NCBI RefSeq assembly: GCF_006543045.1
Contig: NZ_RBZW01000055.1
Location: forward strand, 124,001-188,000
Reading direction: 5' to 3'
Origin: Salinadaptatus halalkaliphilus
Lineage (GTDB): Archaea > Halobacteriota > Halobacteria > Halobacteriales > Natrialbaceae
DNA length: 64,000 nucleotides
Part shown: piece after piece, positions 1-8,393 of the stretch
Layout of the letters: every line of letters begins with the position of its first letter
Position numbering within the stretch: the first letter of the stretch is position 1
Translations under genes and position numbers: made by a program
The notes under the pieces: generated by a model
Told to the model about the DNA's origin: nothing
Database searches by the model: none
Seen by the model: the letters and a program-made list of their open reading frames with translations, nothing else

Positions 1-628
1 CGAGCGATCCCGTTCGCTCGTCGCCCGTGTTCGTCAGGTAGCTGGTGACATCGAGTGTGGTGTCGTCGCCGGCTGTCGACGCGATGGTATACTCGATCGC
101 AGGGACGTTCGCAAGCGCCATCCCATGTTCACTACCGAACCGGTGGAACTCCAGACCGGTATCCGCGTAGGCTGGCGTCAACGAGTCCATGCCGGAGACG
201 CGATGTGACACCGACTCGGTCCGTCTGTCGTCGACGTAGACGAACGTCTCGATCTCGTGGGTCCCCTCGCGTGGGACCTCGAGCGCTGCGGGGACGACGT
301 CCTCGTGTTCGGCTTCGAGGCGGTCGATCTCGCGTTCGGTCGTCGACTCGACGAGGCCGGTCTCGGCGTTGGTCGCCCGGTGGACGATCGTCACGTTCTC
401 GACGGCGCCACCGTGGCTCTGGAGGTAGCTATCGACATCGAGCGTCGCCGTCTCGCCGGAGATTTCCTCGGCGGCGAACGTCACTTCGAGCAGCGATGCG
501 TGACCGTCGACGGCAGCGTCGGTCTCGGGTTCGCTTGGGTCTGCGATCGCACCGGAGAGGGCAAGCGTCGTGAGCGCAGCGAGGACGACCACGAGCGCGA
601 CGATCGCGAGCGCGTACTCGCGGTTCAT
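1..628 (-). CDS. Membrane-anchored surface protein, DUF7490-like (partial)
   Basis: The reading frame starts at the ATG at 628-626 and runs off the left edge of the window, so only about 209 residues are visible. Residues 1-30 form one hydrophobic segment (M-N-R-E-Y followed by an Ala/Val/Leu run), either a signal peptide or an N-terminal anchor. The rest is an acidic, beta-rich extracellular-type sequence with an N-V-T sequon and the phrase LTPAYADTGLEFHRFGS. It resembles haloarchaeal surface proteins carrying DUF7490 domains, which usually end in a PGF-CTERM anchor; that end lies outside the window. A TATA-like element at about 647-656 reads toward this gene and is spaced for a leaderless start. 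The family name is from memory and the function is unknown. Confidence 0.7.
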   Translation of the reverse strand, partial: MNREYALAIVALVVVLAALTTLALSGAIADPSEPETDAAVDGHASLLEVTFAAEEISGETATLDVDSYLQSHGGAVENVTIVHRATNAETGLVESTTEREIDRLEAEHEDVVPAALEVPREGTHEIETFVYVDDRRTESVSHRVSGMDSLTPAYADTGLEFHRFGSEHGMALANVPAIEYTIASTAGDDTTLDVTSYLTNTGDERTGSL

Positions 629-646
629 GTCCACCCCTCTCGAACA

Positions 647-6149: not shown

Positions 6150-6230
6150 GCCAGGATGGCCGAACGGTAAGGCGCACGCCTGGAAAGCGTGTTCCCTTTG
6201 GGATTCAGGGTTCAAATCCCTGTCCTGGCG
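6150..6230 (+). tRNA. tRNA-Ser (GGA)
   Basis: An 81-nt class II tRNA. The acceptor stem pairs GCCAGGA with TCCTGGC and leaves G as the discriminator. The anticodon stem pairs CACGC with GCGTG around the loop CTGGAAA, giving anticodon GGA at 6182-6184. A long variable arm (about 6190-6206) is typical of tRNA-Ser. The T arm contains GGGTTCAAATCCC. CCA is not encoded. A T6 run follows immediately. The 3' end is partly duplicated at 7615-7640, beyond the tnpB gene. Confidence 0.95.
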
Positions 6231-6235
6231 CTTTT
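6210..6235 (+). repeat. tRNA-Ser 3' end, left copy of an att-like repeat
   Basis: The last 21 nt of the tRNA plus the start of its T-run match 7615-7640 at 21 of 26 positions in the same orientation. The two copies bracket the tnpB gene as attL/attR sites would. Confidence 0.45.
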
Positions 6236-6237
6236 TT
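6232..6237 (+). terminator. Oligo-T terminator of tRNA-Ser
   Basis: Six consecutive T residues start two bases after the mature tRNA 3' end, the usual archaeal intrinsic termination signal. Confidence 0.6.
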
Positions 6238-6310
6238 GAGGCTTTATCCAATATATGGTGGGCTACGCACAAATATCTGGTAGCTCGTGAAGTTTTCGTC
6301 AGGTGCTCGA

Positions 6311-6319
6311 GTTTATATA
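6311..6319 (+). promoter_or_regulatory. TATA element of tnpB
   Basis: GTTTATATA lies about 28 nt upstream of the GTG start at 6344. An ATG inside the following bases (6322) is out of frame with the nuclease. Confidence 0.5.
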
Positions 6320-6343
6320 CTATGGCGAGGCCAGTAGTCGTCA

Positions 6344-7567
6344 GTGGCCACCGACTACCTCCGCCGAACGGCGATCACCCGGCTATCCCTTGGCGACGAT
6401 CAGCAGACGTTACTCGACCGAACGATCGCCGAGTGGAAGCAGGCCTGTAATACCGCCAGTCGAATCGGGCGGGCTACAGGCGAGACGCAGACCGCAGCTT
6501 TACAACAGCTCGCGTACGACGATATCCGCGAACAGACGTCACTCGGAAGTCAACACACGATTCTCGCGGTTCGTCAGGCGGCGGCCGCTCTCGACGGAAT
6601 CGAAGCCCTCGATTCAACCGACGCCGAATACACGACCTCTCGTCCGTCTTTTACCAGTGACACCATCACCTACGATCCGAGGTCGATGACGCTGTTCGAC
6701 GACGATACCGTGTCGTTGGCCACGGTCGACGAACGAATCCGGTGTGAGTTGGTCCTGCCAGACGACGATGGGGGCCACCAATACCGATATCTCGACGCTG
6801 CGAGCTGGGAGGTCACTGAATCGACGCTCTCGAAACGGGATGGAGAGTACTACCTCCATATCGGGTTTCGGAAACCAACACCGGCGTCAGAAACCGAAAC
6901 CGAGGCCGATACTGCGGACAGGACAGTTCTCGGTGTCGACCTCGGTATCGTCAACATCGCGACGACGAGTACGGCGTACTTCGCCTCTGGACGGGAACTC
7001 CGGCACCGACACCGTGAATTCGAACGTGTGCGAAACAGCCTCTATCAGAGAGGTACCCAATCGGCATACCGAACGATACGTCGAATGAGCGGTCGCGAGT
7101 CACGATACGTTCGAGACGTTATGCATCAGGTTGCGAACGACATCCTCGAGGAAGCCACGGTCCACGGGTGTACACATATCGTCTTCGAGGATCTAAAGCA
7201 TATTCGAGAGAACGCACCGCCGGGGAAACAATTTCATCAGTGGGCACACCGGCAACTCGTCGAGTTGGTCGAATACAAGGCGAGAGCCATCGGCATCGAT
7301 GTCGAATTCGTTTCGCCAGCAAACACCAGTCGGCGATGTCCGGACTGTGGCTACACGAGTGACAGGAATCGAACGTCACAGTCTCAGTTCGAATGCAAAC
7401 GGTGTGGAACGACTGCTAATGCGGATTACGTCGGCGCAAAAAACGTCGGCATGCGGTTCGTCCGGCACGGCCGACAGTCGTCGGGTCGGACGGGCGACGG
7501 TCAACTCGCCCTGAAGTCAGGAACGGTGACACCGAACGGAACAGTTAGGCCGTACGCTACCGGATAG
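6344..7567 (+). CDS. tnpB: TnpB-family RNA-guided endonuclease (IS200/IS605, IS1341-type)
   Basis: A 407-aa protein starting at GTG. The RuvC residues are all present: D199 in VLGVDLGIVNIA, E282 in IVFEDLKHI and D361 in NADYVGAKNVG. A zinc ribbon is formed by C332/C335 and C351/C354. TnpB proteins are nucleases guided by an omegaRNA that overlaps the 3' end of the gene and the right end of the element. No TnpA transposase gene is adjacent, so this is an IS1341-type lone copy. In the +1 frame the DNA just after the stop still reads E-F-T-D-K, which resembles the tail of relatives, so the C-terminus may have been shortened by a small indel. The gene sits between tRNA-Ser and a partial copy of its 3' end. 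Confidence 0.9.
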   Translation: MATDYLRRTAITRLSLGDDQQTLLDRTIAEWKQACNTASRIGRATGETQTAALQQLAYDDIREQTSLGSQHTILAVRQAAAALDGIEALDSTDAEYTTSRPSFTSDTITYDPRSMTLFDDDTVSLATVDERIRCELVLPDDDGGHQYRYLDAASWEVTESTLSKRDGEYYLHIGFRKPTPASETETEADTADRTVLGVDLGIVNIATTSTAYFASGRELRHRHREFERVRNSLYQRGTQSAYRTIRRMSGRESRYVRDVMHQVANDILEEATVHGCTHIVFEDLKHIRENAPPGKQFHQWAHRQLVELVEYKARAIGIDVEFVSPANTSRRCPDCGYTSDRNRTSQSQFECKRCGTTANADYVGAKNVGMRFVRHGRQSSGRTGDGQLALKSGTVTPNGTVRPYATG

Positions 7568-7640
7568 CGTCGGAGGGAGAGTTCACTGACAAGTCCAGGT
7601 ATCGAACCGGGACAGTTGATATCCCAGTTCTGGCGCTTTG
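7568..7640 (+). other. Right end of the tnpB element: possible omegaRNA scaffold and tRNA-like repeat
   Basis: The non-coding stretch after tnpB carries a short hairpin (GGGA with TCCC around CAGTTGATA). It ends with 7615-7640, an imperfect copy of the tRNA-Ser 3' end. In related elements this position encodes the guide-RNA scaffold; here that role is inferred from position only. Confidence 0.35.
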
Positions 7641-7688: not shown

Positions 7689-8393
7689 ATGTGTGGCCGT
7701 TACACTCTCGCCCTCGAGCGCGAGACCCTCGAGGACAGATTCGACGCCGAATTCGCGGGCTCGTTCGAGCCGCGATACAACGTGACGCCGGGCCAAGACG
7801 TGCCCGTCATCACGAACGAGGAGCCGGAGACGATCCAGGGGTTCGAGTGGGGGCTGGTGCCGTCGTGGGCCGACGACGGCAGCGGTGGGATGATCAACGC
7901 GCGTGCGGAGACGGTCGACGAGAAACCGAGCTTCAGGGAGGCCTACGAACGGCGGCGATGTCTGGTCCCCGCGGACGGTTTCTACGAGTGGGTCGAGACG
8001 GACGACGGGAAACAGCCCTATCGTGTAACCCTCGAGGACGAGCGGCCGTTCGCCATGGCCGGACTGTGGGAGCGATGGGAGCCCGACGAGCCGACGACGC
8101 AGGCGGGGTTGGACGCCTTCGGCGGCGGGAGTGAGGACGCTGGTGGTGACGACGGCCCGCTCGAGACGTTCACGGTCGTCACGACCGAACCGAACGAGCT
8201 GGTTGGCGACCTCCATCACCGGATGGCGGTCGTGCTCGAGCCGTCGGCCGAACGACGCTGGCTCGAGGGCGAGGAGACGGGCGAACTACTCGAGCCCTAT
8301 CCCGCCGACGACATGCGTGCGTATCCGGTCTCGACGGCGGTCAACGATCCGTCGGTCGACGAACCGTCGCTGCTCGAGCCGGTCGAGTCCTGA
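7689..8393 (+). CDS. SOS response-associated peptidase (SRAP/HMCES-like) abasic-site protein
   Basis: A 234-aa protein of the YedK/HMCES family, which forms a thiazolidine crosslink to abasic sites in single-stranded DNA through the amino-terminal cysteine. The start is fixed by this chemistry: MCGRYTL puts Cys at position 2. The other conserved blocks are present: RYNVTPGQDVPV, FEWGLVPSWA, MINARAET (with the active-site Asn and Glu), RCLVPADGFYEW, and HHRMAVVL with the catalytic His. An acidic insert (about residues 140-157) is a haloarchaeal feature. It probably protects stalled or damaged ssDNA. There is no obvious operon partner. Confidence 0.93.
   Translation: MCGRYTLALERETLEDRFDAEFAGSFEPRYNVTPGQDVPVITNEEPETIQGFEWGLVPSWADDGSGGMINARAETVDEKPSFREAYERRRCLVPADGFYEWVETDDGKQPYRVTLEDERPFAMAGLWERWEPDEPTTQAGLDAFGGGSEDAGGDDGPLETFTVVTTEPNELVGDLHHRMAVVLEPSAERRWLEGEETGELLEPYPADDMRAYPVSTAVNDPSVDEPSLLEPVES

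Follow-up and report, generated by a model that had tools for sequence, protein, structure and literature searches.

A TnpB gene parked behind tRNA-Ser(GGA) as a candidate natural cleave-and-rescue element of haloarchaea

Positions 6150–7640 of the 64-kb window (the whole stretch of DNA analysed here; genome G000, contig C66) hold a tRNA-Ser(GGA) gene, a tnpB gene and a predicted omegaRNA whose guide resembles the 3′ end of that tRNA. On balance, though by no wide measure, we favor reading this stretch as a tRNA-parked TnpB cassette, a natural cleave-and-rescue element at an essential tRNA gene. Its layout would be, in order, the spared allele of tRNA-Ser(GGA), tnpB, the omegaRNA scaffold and a guide close to the 3′ end of the other allele. 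As judged from sequence, such a locus has the parts of a cleave-and-rescue system, namely a nuclease with a guide for the other allele of a single-copy, presumably essential tRNA and, linked to it, a version of that tRNA that either is a poorer fit to the guide or has no target-adjacent motif (TAM); from these parts we infer that the cassette cuts the other allele and spreads.

The tRNA-like repeat as an omegaRNA guide

The tRNA-Ser(GGA) gene (6150–6231, plus strand; ARAGORN and Rfam RF00005) is the sole tRNA that ARAGORN reports in the window, has one match in its own genome and carries the T-stem allele CAGGG/CCCTG. Its T-loop contains TTCAA (6211–6215, plus strand), the inferred TAM of this TnpB family, and next to it lies ATCCCTGTCCTGGCG (6216–6230, plus strand). 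The tnpB gene runs on the plus strand from a GTG at 6344 to a TAG at 7567 and encodes 407 amino acids (PF07282, PF01385, NCBIfam guided_TnpB), with the RuvC triad D199/E282/D361 and the zinc-knuckle cysteines 332, 335, 351 and 354 all present. The 26-mer at 7615–7640 is identical to 6210–6235 at 21 of 26 positions, while the next best site on either strand of the window reaches 17/26 and each of six second-order Markov windows gave a best match of 16–17/26; the match to the tRNA end is far above chance. An earlier note on this DNA, made from the letters alone, had named the tRNA, the tnpB residues, the 21/26 match and the coordinates of all these, and had relied on the 7615 match being better than chance; ARAGORN, Rfam, Pfam, alignment and the comparison with the next best site bear it out on each.

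The same note preferred to see in the two copies the attL and attR sites of an old integration, left by an integrase-type element at the tRNA. The inserted gene does indeed have a copy of the tRNA 3′ end at either flank, and species without tnpB at this place also bear downstream copies of it. Nevertheless, we consider such an origin very improbable, and this part of the note did not stand. The right copy begins with the scaffold end GTTGAT and not with T-loop sequence, and copies in this guide register recur beside 12 tRNA species; the interval holds no integrase, tnpB being the only open reading frame between the tRNA and the repeat copy to be assigned a family; and among the loci listed for this comparison, similarity of the guide side to the tRNA fades at or soon past the tRNA end except at L152, where alone it continues for ~30 nt (9, 9 and 10 of 10). 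Because of this fading we do not claim a general mechanism of insertion with flank duplication. As a separate observation, one or two downstream copies of the T-arm and acceptor end are present at the tnpB-less tRNA-Ser(GGA) loci L029–L031, L034, L036, L038, L041, L046, L048, L050, L053 and L056; many of them follow an inverted T-arm and hairpins, and they form a separate repeat family that does not lie behind a TnpB scaffold end.

The other possibility raised in the note, that tRNA sequence was captured as a guide and so shows where the omegaRNA lies, is supported, given a conserved scaffold fold and a best match one base past the scaffold-end motif in nearly all linked loci (below). In most relatives of the window TnpB that are not beside a tRNA, the scaffold ends in GTTGAC and is followed by locus-specific sequence. 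RNAalifold, applied to 40 aligned relatives (16 linked to a tRNA and 24 unlinked), gave −30.3, whereas 30 column-shuffled alignments averaged −2.4; the predicted helices are GGGCGA/TCGCCC, GTCAG/CTGAC and a final hairpin before AGTTGAT, with several compensated pairs, some of them in that hairpin. In the window the predicted scaffold spans 7492–7620 (plus strand) and overlaps the 3′ end of tnpB, so the guide, ATCCCAGTTCTGGCG, is placed at 7621–7635 (plus strand; 15 nt, with its 3′ end not fixed). The repeat at 7615–7640 is made up of the scaffold end GTTGAT (7615–7620) and the guide from 7621 onward. The guide starts at the base that corresponds to the one following TTCAA in the tRNA, in the same register as ATCCCTGTCCTGGCG, and differs from the latter at guide positions 6 and 9. 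We take TTCAA as the TAM because it is enriched to the left of the left-end motif in unlinked loci, where it lies no more than 30 nt before the motif in 82 of the 137 motif-bearing cases (background 1.5% per 30 nt). A scan of the window's own genome for the guide with TTCAA, allowing up to 3 mismatches, gives two sites, the tRNA (2 mismatches) and the guide's own DNA, in which the TAM position reads TTGAT. These observations support the view that the 26-nt repeat is the guide of a TnpB omegaRNA, captured from tRNA sequence.

Recurrence of the design at 12 tRNA species

Among the matches listed, 227 distinct tnpB loci were gathered, and the named relatives of the window TnpB are nearly all haloarchaeal. 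A tRNA gene lies within 520 bp in 56 of these loci, again among the matches listed, and it is upstream and on the same strand in 51 of the 56; as both protein queries (the window TnpB and L161) are themselves tRNA-linked, 56/227 is not an unbiased frequency. When the register is held fixed, the 15-nt tail of the adjoining tRNA is matched at 12/15 or better in 36 of 59 tRNA-tnpB pairs, as against 13 of 1509 comparisons with the tails of other tRNAs; unlinked loci reach this level in 1 of 5440. When the offset may vary (−4 to +10), the best match falls exactly one base after the scaffold-end motif in 50 of 52 loci, and the best guide match anywhere in the 3′ region lies directly after that motif in 43 of them.

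Automatic, hairpin-based guide calling failed in many diverged cassettes, and guides were placed by the scaffold-end motif together with the best match to the adjoining tRNA. Since this placement favors a self-match, it is conservative for the self-avoidance test described below. The set used there comprises 52 of the 57 linked loci (the 56 above and L071). L292 and L258 (<8/15) and L297, L293 and L002 (no convincing guide) were left out, and none of these five would be self-susceptible; the guides of L204 and L105, whose scaffold ends in CTGAT, and of L024 were added by hand. The 52 loci lie beside 12 tRNA species, with 18 at Ser(GGA), 12 at Thr(GGT), 8 at Ser(CGA), 3 at Gly(CCC), 2 each at Gly(GCC), Ile and Pro, and 1 each at Arg, Leu, Lys, Met and Ser(TGA). 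A FastTree phylogeny of 201 TnpBs (51 of them linked) requires at least 18 changes between the linked and free states, which supports repeated origin of the tRNA-guide design beside different tRNAs. Some neighbors of tRNA genes are of another kind: L002 (G000:C5), L077 of Halobiforma haloterrestris and L064 are ordinary copies of the family inside an array of ~10 tRNA genes, and their guides are unlike any neighboring tRNA.

Opposite guides and tRNA alleles in close relatives

The differences between guide and adjoining tRNA appear mostly not to be decay, as the Ser(GGA) and Thr guides are nearest to a natural tRNA allele that is absent from the host. In particular, the window guide is closest to the CCCAG allele of tRNA-Ser(GGA), from which it departs by one C-to-T. 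In 125 genomes of the family, of which 122 could be scored, each with one match, tRNA-Ser(GGA) has the CCCTG allele in 74 and the CCCAG allele in 48; because there is one match per genome, its loss should be lethal. All nine cassettes of the family with CCCAG guides are found in CCCTG hosts (hypergeometric P = 0.009), and the seven whose guide is of the CCCTG type and whose host reads TTCAA are without exception in CCCAG hosts (hypergeometric P = 0.001). The single TTCGA genome among the 122, G006, is also the only family host found in which a Ser guide (that of L152) matches the host's own tRNA at 15/15.

The Thr cassettes follow a similar pattern. Nine of 12 Thr guides are identical over their first 12 nt to the common tRNA-Thr tail, TTCRA-WTYCCGGCCTAGGC, which is present, in a tRNA or a copy, in at least 326 of 392 genomes of the order and, among the matches listed, in none of the 11 surveyed Thr-cassette hosts (P = 1.5e-9, uncorrected; the twelfth Thr locus, L110, lies outside the 392 genomes). 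Congeners do have the common tail in genera g10 (G009, G080, G082 and G083), g7 (G033), g12 (G061, G092 and G093) and g65 (G244, G268 and G387). Among the matches listed, the tail is also not matched in some genomes without a known Thr cassette, such as G094, G328 and many of those in g33, to which 3 of the 11 hosts belong as members of that genus.

Pairs of close relatives with opposite cassettes at tRNA-Ser(GGA) are especially informative. G062 and G132 of one genus, and G090 and G027 and likewise G089 and G091 of another, are 95%, 93% and 95% identical, respectively, over the 500 bp that end at the tRNA, and high identity resumes within ~60–180 aligned columns past the guide. The TnpBs in between are 50–51% identical and their guides are opposite. 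The tRNA-Ser genes of each pair differ at positions 58 and 72 only; these form a base pair of the T-stem, and precisely this base pair distinguishes the alleles to which the two guides correspond (a fourth pair, L014 and L160, was left out of the per-position comparison, as its tRNAs are of unequal length). This coupled switch of guide and T-stem pair is, within our sequence comparisons, the strongest single result. At L036 (G031), the downstream copy of the tRNA end reads CCCAG and the live tRNA has CCCTG; the copy looks like the end of a former allele that stayed in place when another allele took over.

Fit of guides to the host's own tRNA

The T-loop of the 52 hosts reads TTCAA in 42 and TTCGA in 10, and a T-stem mismatch to the resident guide occurs in 40 of the 42 TTCAA hosts versus 4 of the 10 TTCGA hosts (Fisher P = 2.5e-4). 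With susceptibility defined as TTCAA in the tRNA plus guide matches at 14/15 or better, 0 of 52 hosts are self-susceptible, compared with 157 of 506 pairings of a tRNA with non-self guides of its own tRNA species; shuffling the guides within tRNA species gave a mean of 9.2 self-susceptible hosts, and none of 20,000 shuffles reached 0 (P = 0.0021 for the 36 unique configurations). Without any cut-off, TTCAA hosts have 63 T-stem mismatches versus 50.4 after shuffling (P = 0.0002; 43 versus 36.1 in unique configurations, P = 0.014), and TTCGA hosts have 4 versus 8.0 (P = 0.02). It thus seems that the host tRNA tends to be spared and that the best-fitting guides sit in hosts that lack the TAM, their T-loop being TTCGA. 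Two tRNA-Gly(CCC) cassettes, L116 and L289, have nearly the same guide; one of their hosts reads TTCGA and the other has a different acceptor stem.

State of the nuclease and of the transposon ends

D199, E282, D361 and the four cysteines are kept in 51 of 51 aligned linked TnpBs (49 of the 52 loci above together with L292 and L293) and across all 201 aligned TnpBs, apart from a tyrosine at Cys335 in one unlinked row; the alignment left out 26 of the 227 loci, the linked L071, L110 and L116 among them, for internal stops or a length below 330 aa. The ratio of nonsynonymous to synonymous substitution rates (dN/dS) is 0.10–0.26 in 13 of 14 pairs; the remaining pair, whose members are very close, gives 0.43. 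The tRNA-linked nuclease therefore looks live, and its genes look to be under purifying selection. Such a protein might in principle regulate, binding the tRNA locus without cutting and tuning expression of the tRNA, and the position of tnpB beside the tRNA would suit that role; given an intact RuvC triad in 51 of 51 and guides that avoid the host tRNA, we find this hard to credit.

The transposon left-end motif is found at 6 of 55 linked loci, not including that of the window, versus 137 of 172 unlinked loci. GTTGA is followed by C at 107 of 110 unlinked loci and by T at 33 of 52 linked loci, counts that rest on automatic guide placement. With the left-end motif mostly lost and the right-end base often changed, normal transposition looks to be beyond most of the cassettes, which are nonetheless maintained. 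Cassettes can also die in place: at L071 (G072) a decayed Ser cassette has in-frame stops, with its guide and the opposite host allele still there, and at L324 (G065, ~1850–1999) a 50-aa TnpB remnant of 48% identity lies ~235 bp behind tRNA-Ser(GGA) and is probably a dead cassette.

One might accordingly regard all of these TnpBs as neutral relics parked at tRNAs, with guides that are drifting, functionless copies, so that guide and tRNA have simply diverged. The stops in L071 and the remnant at L324 would agree with this, several guides are degenerate past position 12, and the permutation test for self-avoidance depends on its cut-off (below). However, the Ser and Thr guides are nearest to real alternative alleles, guide and T-stem pair switch together in close relatives, the tests made without a cut-off agree with self-avoidance, and TnpB is under purifying selection, all of which makes a general relic status improbable.

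Proposed action of the cassette

Under the cleave-and-rescue reading, TnpB would cut the tRNA gene of the allele that the host does not have, whether on another copy of the chromosome, in a mating partner or in incoming DNA. For the window, the presumed target is TTCAA-ATCCCAGTCCTGGCG (CCCAG), and the host allele, TTCAA-ATCCCTGTCCTGGCG, would be spared. Repair from the cassette-bearing chromosome would install the resistant tRNA, tnpB and the guide together. The cassette would thereby spread, and the allele that it cuts would be unable to displace it. Resistance would be due here to the paired swap in the T-stem and in other hosts to a TAM that reads TTCGA, and at tRNA-Ser(GGA) two cassettes whose guides are opposite would be mutually exclusive and would convert one another. 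Haloarchaea are polyploid. Haloferax volcanii exchanges DNA via cytoplasmic bridges (PMC7749143). Bridges and polyploidy would thus give occasions for homing.

A competing use is that of a domesticated defense, in which TnpB would guard tRNA genes against viruses or integrative elements that carry a tRNA 3′ end as their attachment site, the host tRNA having been altered so that just the invader's copy is cut. It would suit the persistence of purifying selection where transposon ends are mostly lost. In addition, IMG/VR record L313 contains a partial tRNA-Thr (540–640, minus strand) that includes TTCAA-ATTCCGGCCTAGGC, which several Thr guides would target; it is flanked by an aldo/keto reductase gene fragment (PF00248) and an open reading frame without a Pfam match, probably at a provirus/host junction. 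On the other hand, the IMG/VR scans gave only 2 records, one of them with a complete tRNA-Ser, and neither has a phage-integrase family match, though both may be fragments. The Ser tail has no match in the plasmid collection and is only weakly matched, in part by tRNA-annotated sequences, in phages of bacteria, a set in which haloarchaeal elements are probably few. Moreover, the targets are the ordinary tRNA alleles of most relatives. We regard defense as unlikely, although clearly less so than relics, attachment sites or regulation.

Several points weigh against cleave-and-rescue. The Ser allele counts by themselves are of moderate significance (the hypergeometric values of 0.009 and 0.001), and these and the self-avoidance statistics ignore phylogeny. 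The self-avoidance permutation is significant only at 14/15 and without a cut-off: at 13/15 there are 19 self-susceptible hosts versus 21.3 expected (P = 0.14), at 12/15 there is no difference, and at 15/15 there are 0 versus 1.1 expected (P = 0.25), too few cases to tell. This dependence indicates that many hosts are just one mismatch further from the guide than the presumed target. The number of TTCAA hosts without a T-stem mismatch departs from the shuffles for Ser(GGA) only; for Ser(CGA) alone the difference is not significant, and the Thr guides are all of one type, which makes shuffling uninformative for them. L116 and L241 are TTCAA hosts with no T-stem mismatch, differing from their guides in the acceptor stem only, and at L240 and L159 the adjoining tRNA is on the opposite strand. 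Fifteen of the 18 Ser(GGA) guides have one C-to-T relative to the nearest known allele, at guide position 9 or 10 and in both TnpB groups (7629 in the window). With it, a Ser(GGA) guide fits its presumed target at 14/15 and its host at 13/15, so that the two are one mismatch apart. The change would leave an rU-dG wobble, and its regularity is unexplained.

Finally, the comparison with empty sites in relatives that the earlier note had proposed proved uninformative, as none of the 12 tRNA-Ser loci fetched from congeners and other members of the family (L314–L325) is a clean empty site. Eleven have no TnpB match and L324 has the remnant described above; upstream synteny holds, but other sequence occupies the space between the tRNA and the gene that follows, and for that reason insertion in one step could not be shown. 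Rows against the cassette-bearing L033, L037, L039, L040, L044, L049 and L054 were not used in this comparison.

We suggest more widely, in a claim held about as readily as it is doubted, that haloarchaeal tRNA genes are a battleground of RNA-guided cleave-and-rescue elements, in which rival cassettes with opposite guides are each tied to the tRNA allele that only the rival cuts, and that T-stem and T-loop have been shaped by this across the group. TnpB is a relative of the ancestor of Cas12. If cleave-and-rescue is the correct reading, the cassettes would be a natural counterpart of engineered cleave-and-rescue drives, aimed at essential genes; they would account for the changes of a T-stem pair and of a T-loop base (TTCAA/TTCGA) from one close relative to another, and they would show how a genome can keep a TnpB that has lost its transposon ends.

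Flanking features of the locus

A TATA-like element read from the sequence, TTTATATA (6312–6319, plus strand), lies 25 nt upstream of the tnpB start and suggests that tnpB has its own, possibly leaderless, transcript. The downstream chromosomal neighbor of the cassette is an SRAP gene (7689–8393, plus strand; PF02586).

Comparison with known systems

In IS200/IS605 and IS1341-type elements, the guide of TnpB is the right flank of the element. The cassettes share with these the protein family, an omegaRNA at the 3′ end of tnpB and a guide that starts one base after GTTGA, and TTCAA also lies to the left of many ordinary members. They differ in that the left-end motif is mostly gone, the right-end base is often changed, and the guide is derived from a tRNA and sits behind a tRNA that it does not fit best. 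TldR proteins are nuclease-dead TnpB regulators. They and the cassette TnpBs alike have become fixed in genomes and have conserved guides, but the RuvC residues of the cassette TnpBs are intact (51 of 51).

Among the matches listed in PMC, in which few preprints and subscription journals are covered, there is no paper on tRNA-derived TnpB guides, and the passages on circular omegaRNAs in archaea in PMC12558985 do not treat tRNA genes as targets. A close natural parallel in action is the TnpB gene drive reported for insertion sequences in plasmids, where copies without the element are cut and element-bearing copies win (Mears et al. 2025, PMC11870625). In that system TnpB is aimed at the empty insertion site on a plasmid, whereas the target of the cassette would be a chromosomal tRNA allele, with resistance coming from a changed tRNA.

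Homing endonucleases and inteins read their site by protein and are rescued by splicing, and the cassette would use an RNA guide and a changed tRNA instead. Cleave-and-Rescue (ClvR) elements have been engineered in insects with Cas9. Haloarchaeal homing endonucleases and inteins are selfish nucleases that spread by recombination in DNA-exchanging organisms (PMC3024317, PMC4071816), and synthetic ClvR combines a nuclease directed against an essential gene with a linked version that it cannot cut (PMC7951863). Compared with ClvR, the cassette would be natural, archaeal and TnpB-based, and its rescue would be supplied by the resident tRNA, in which one stem pair is swapped.

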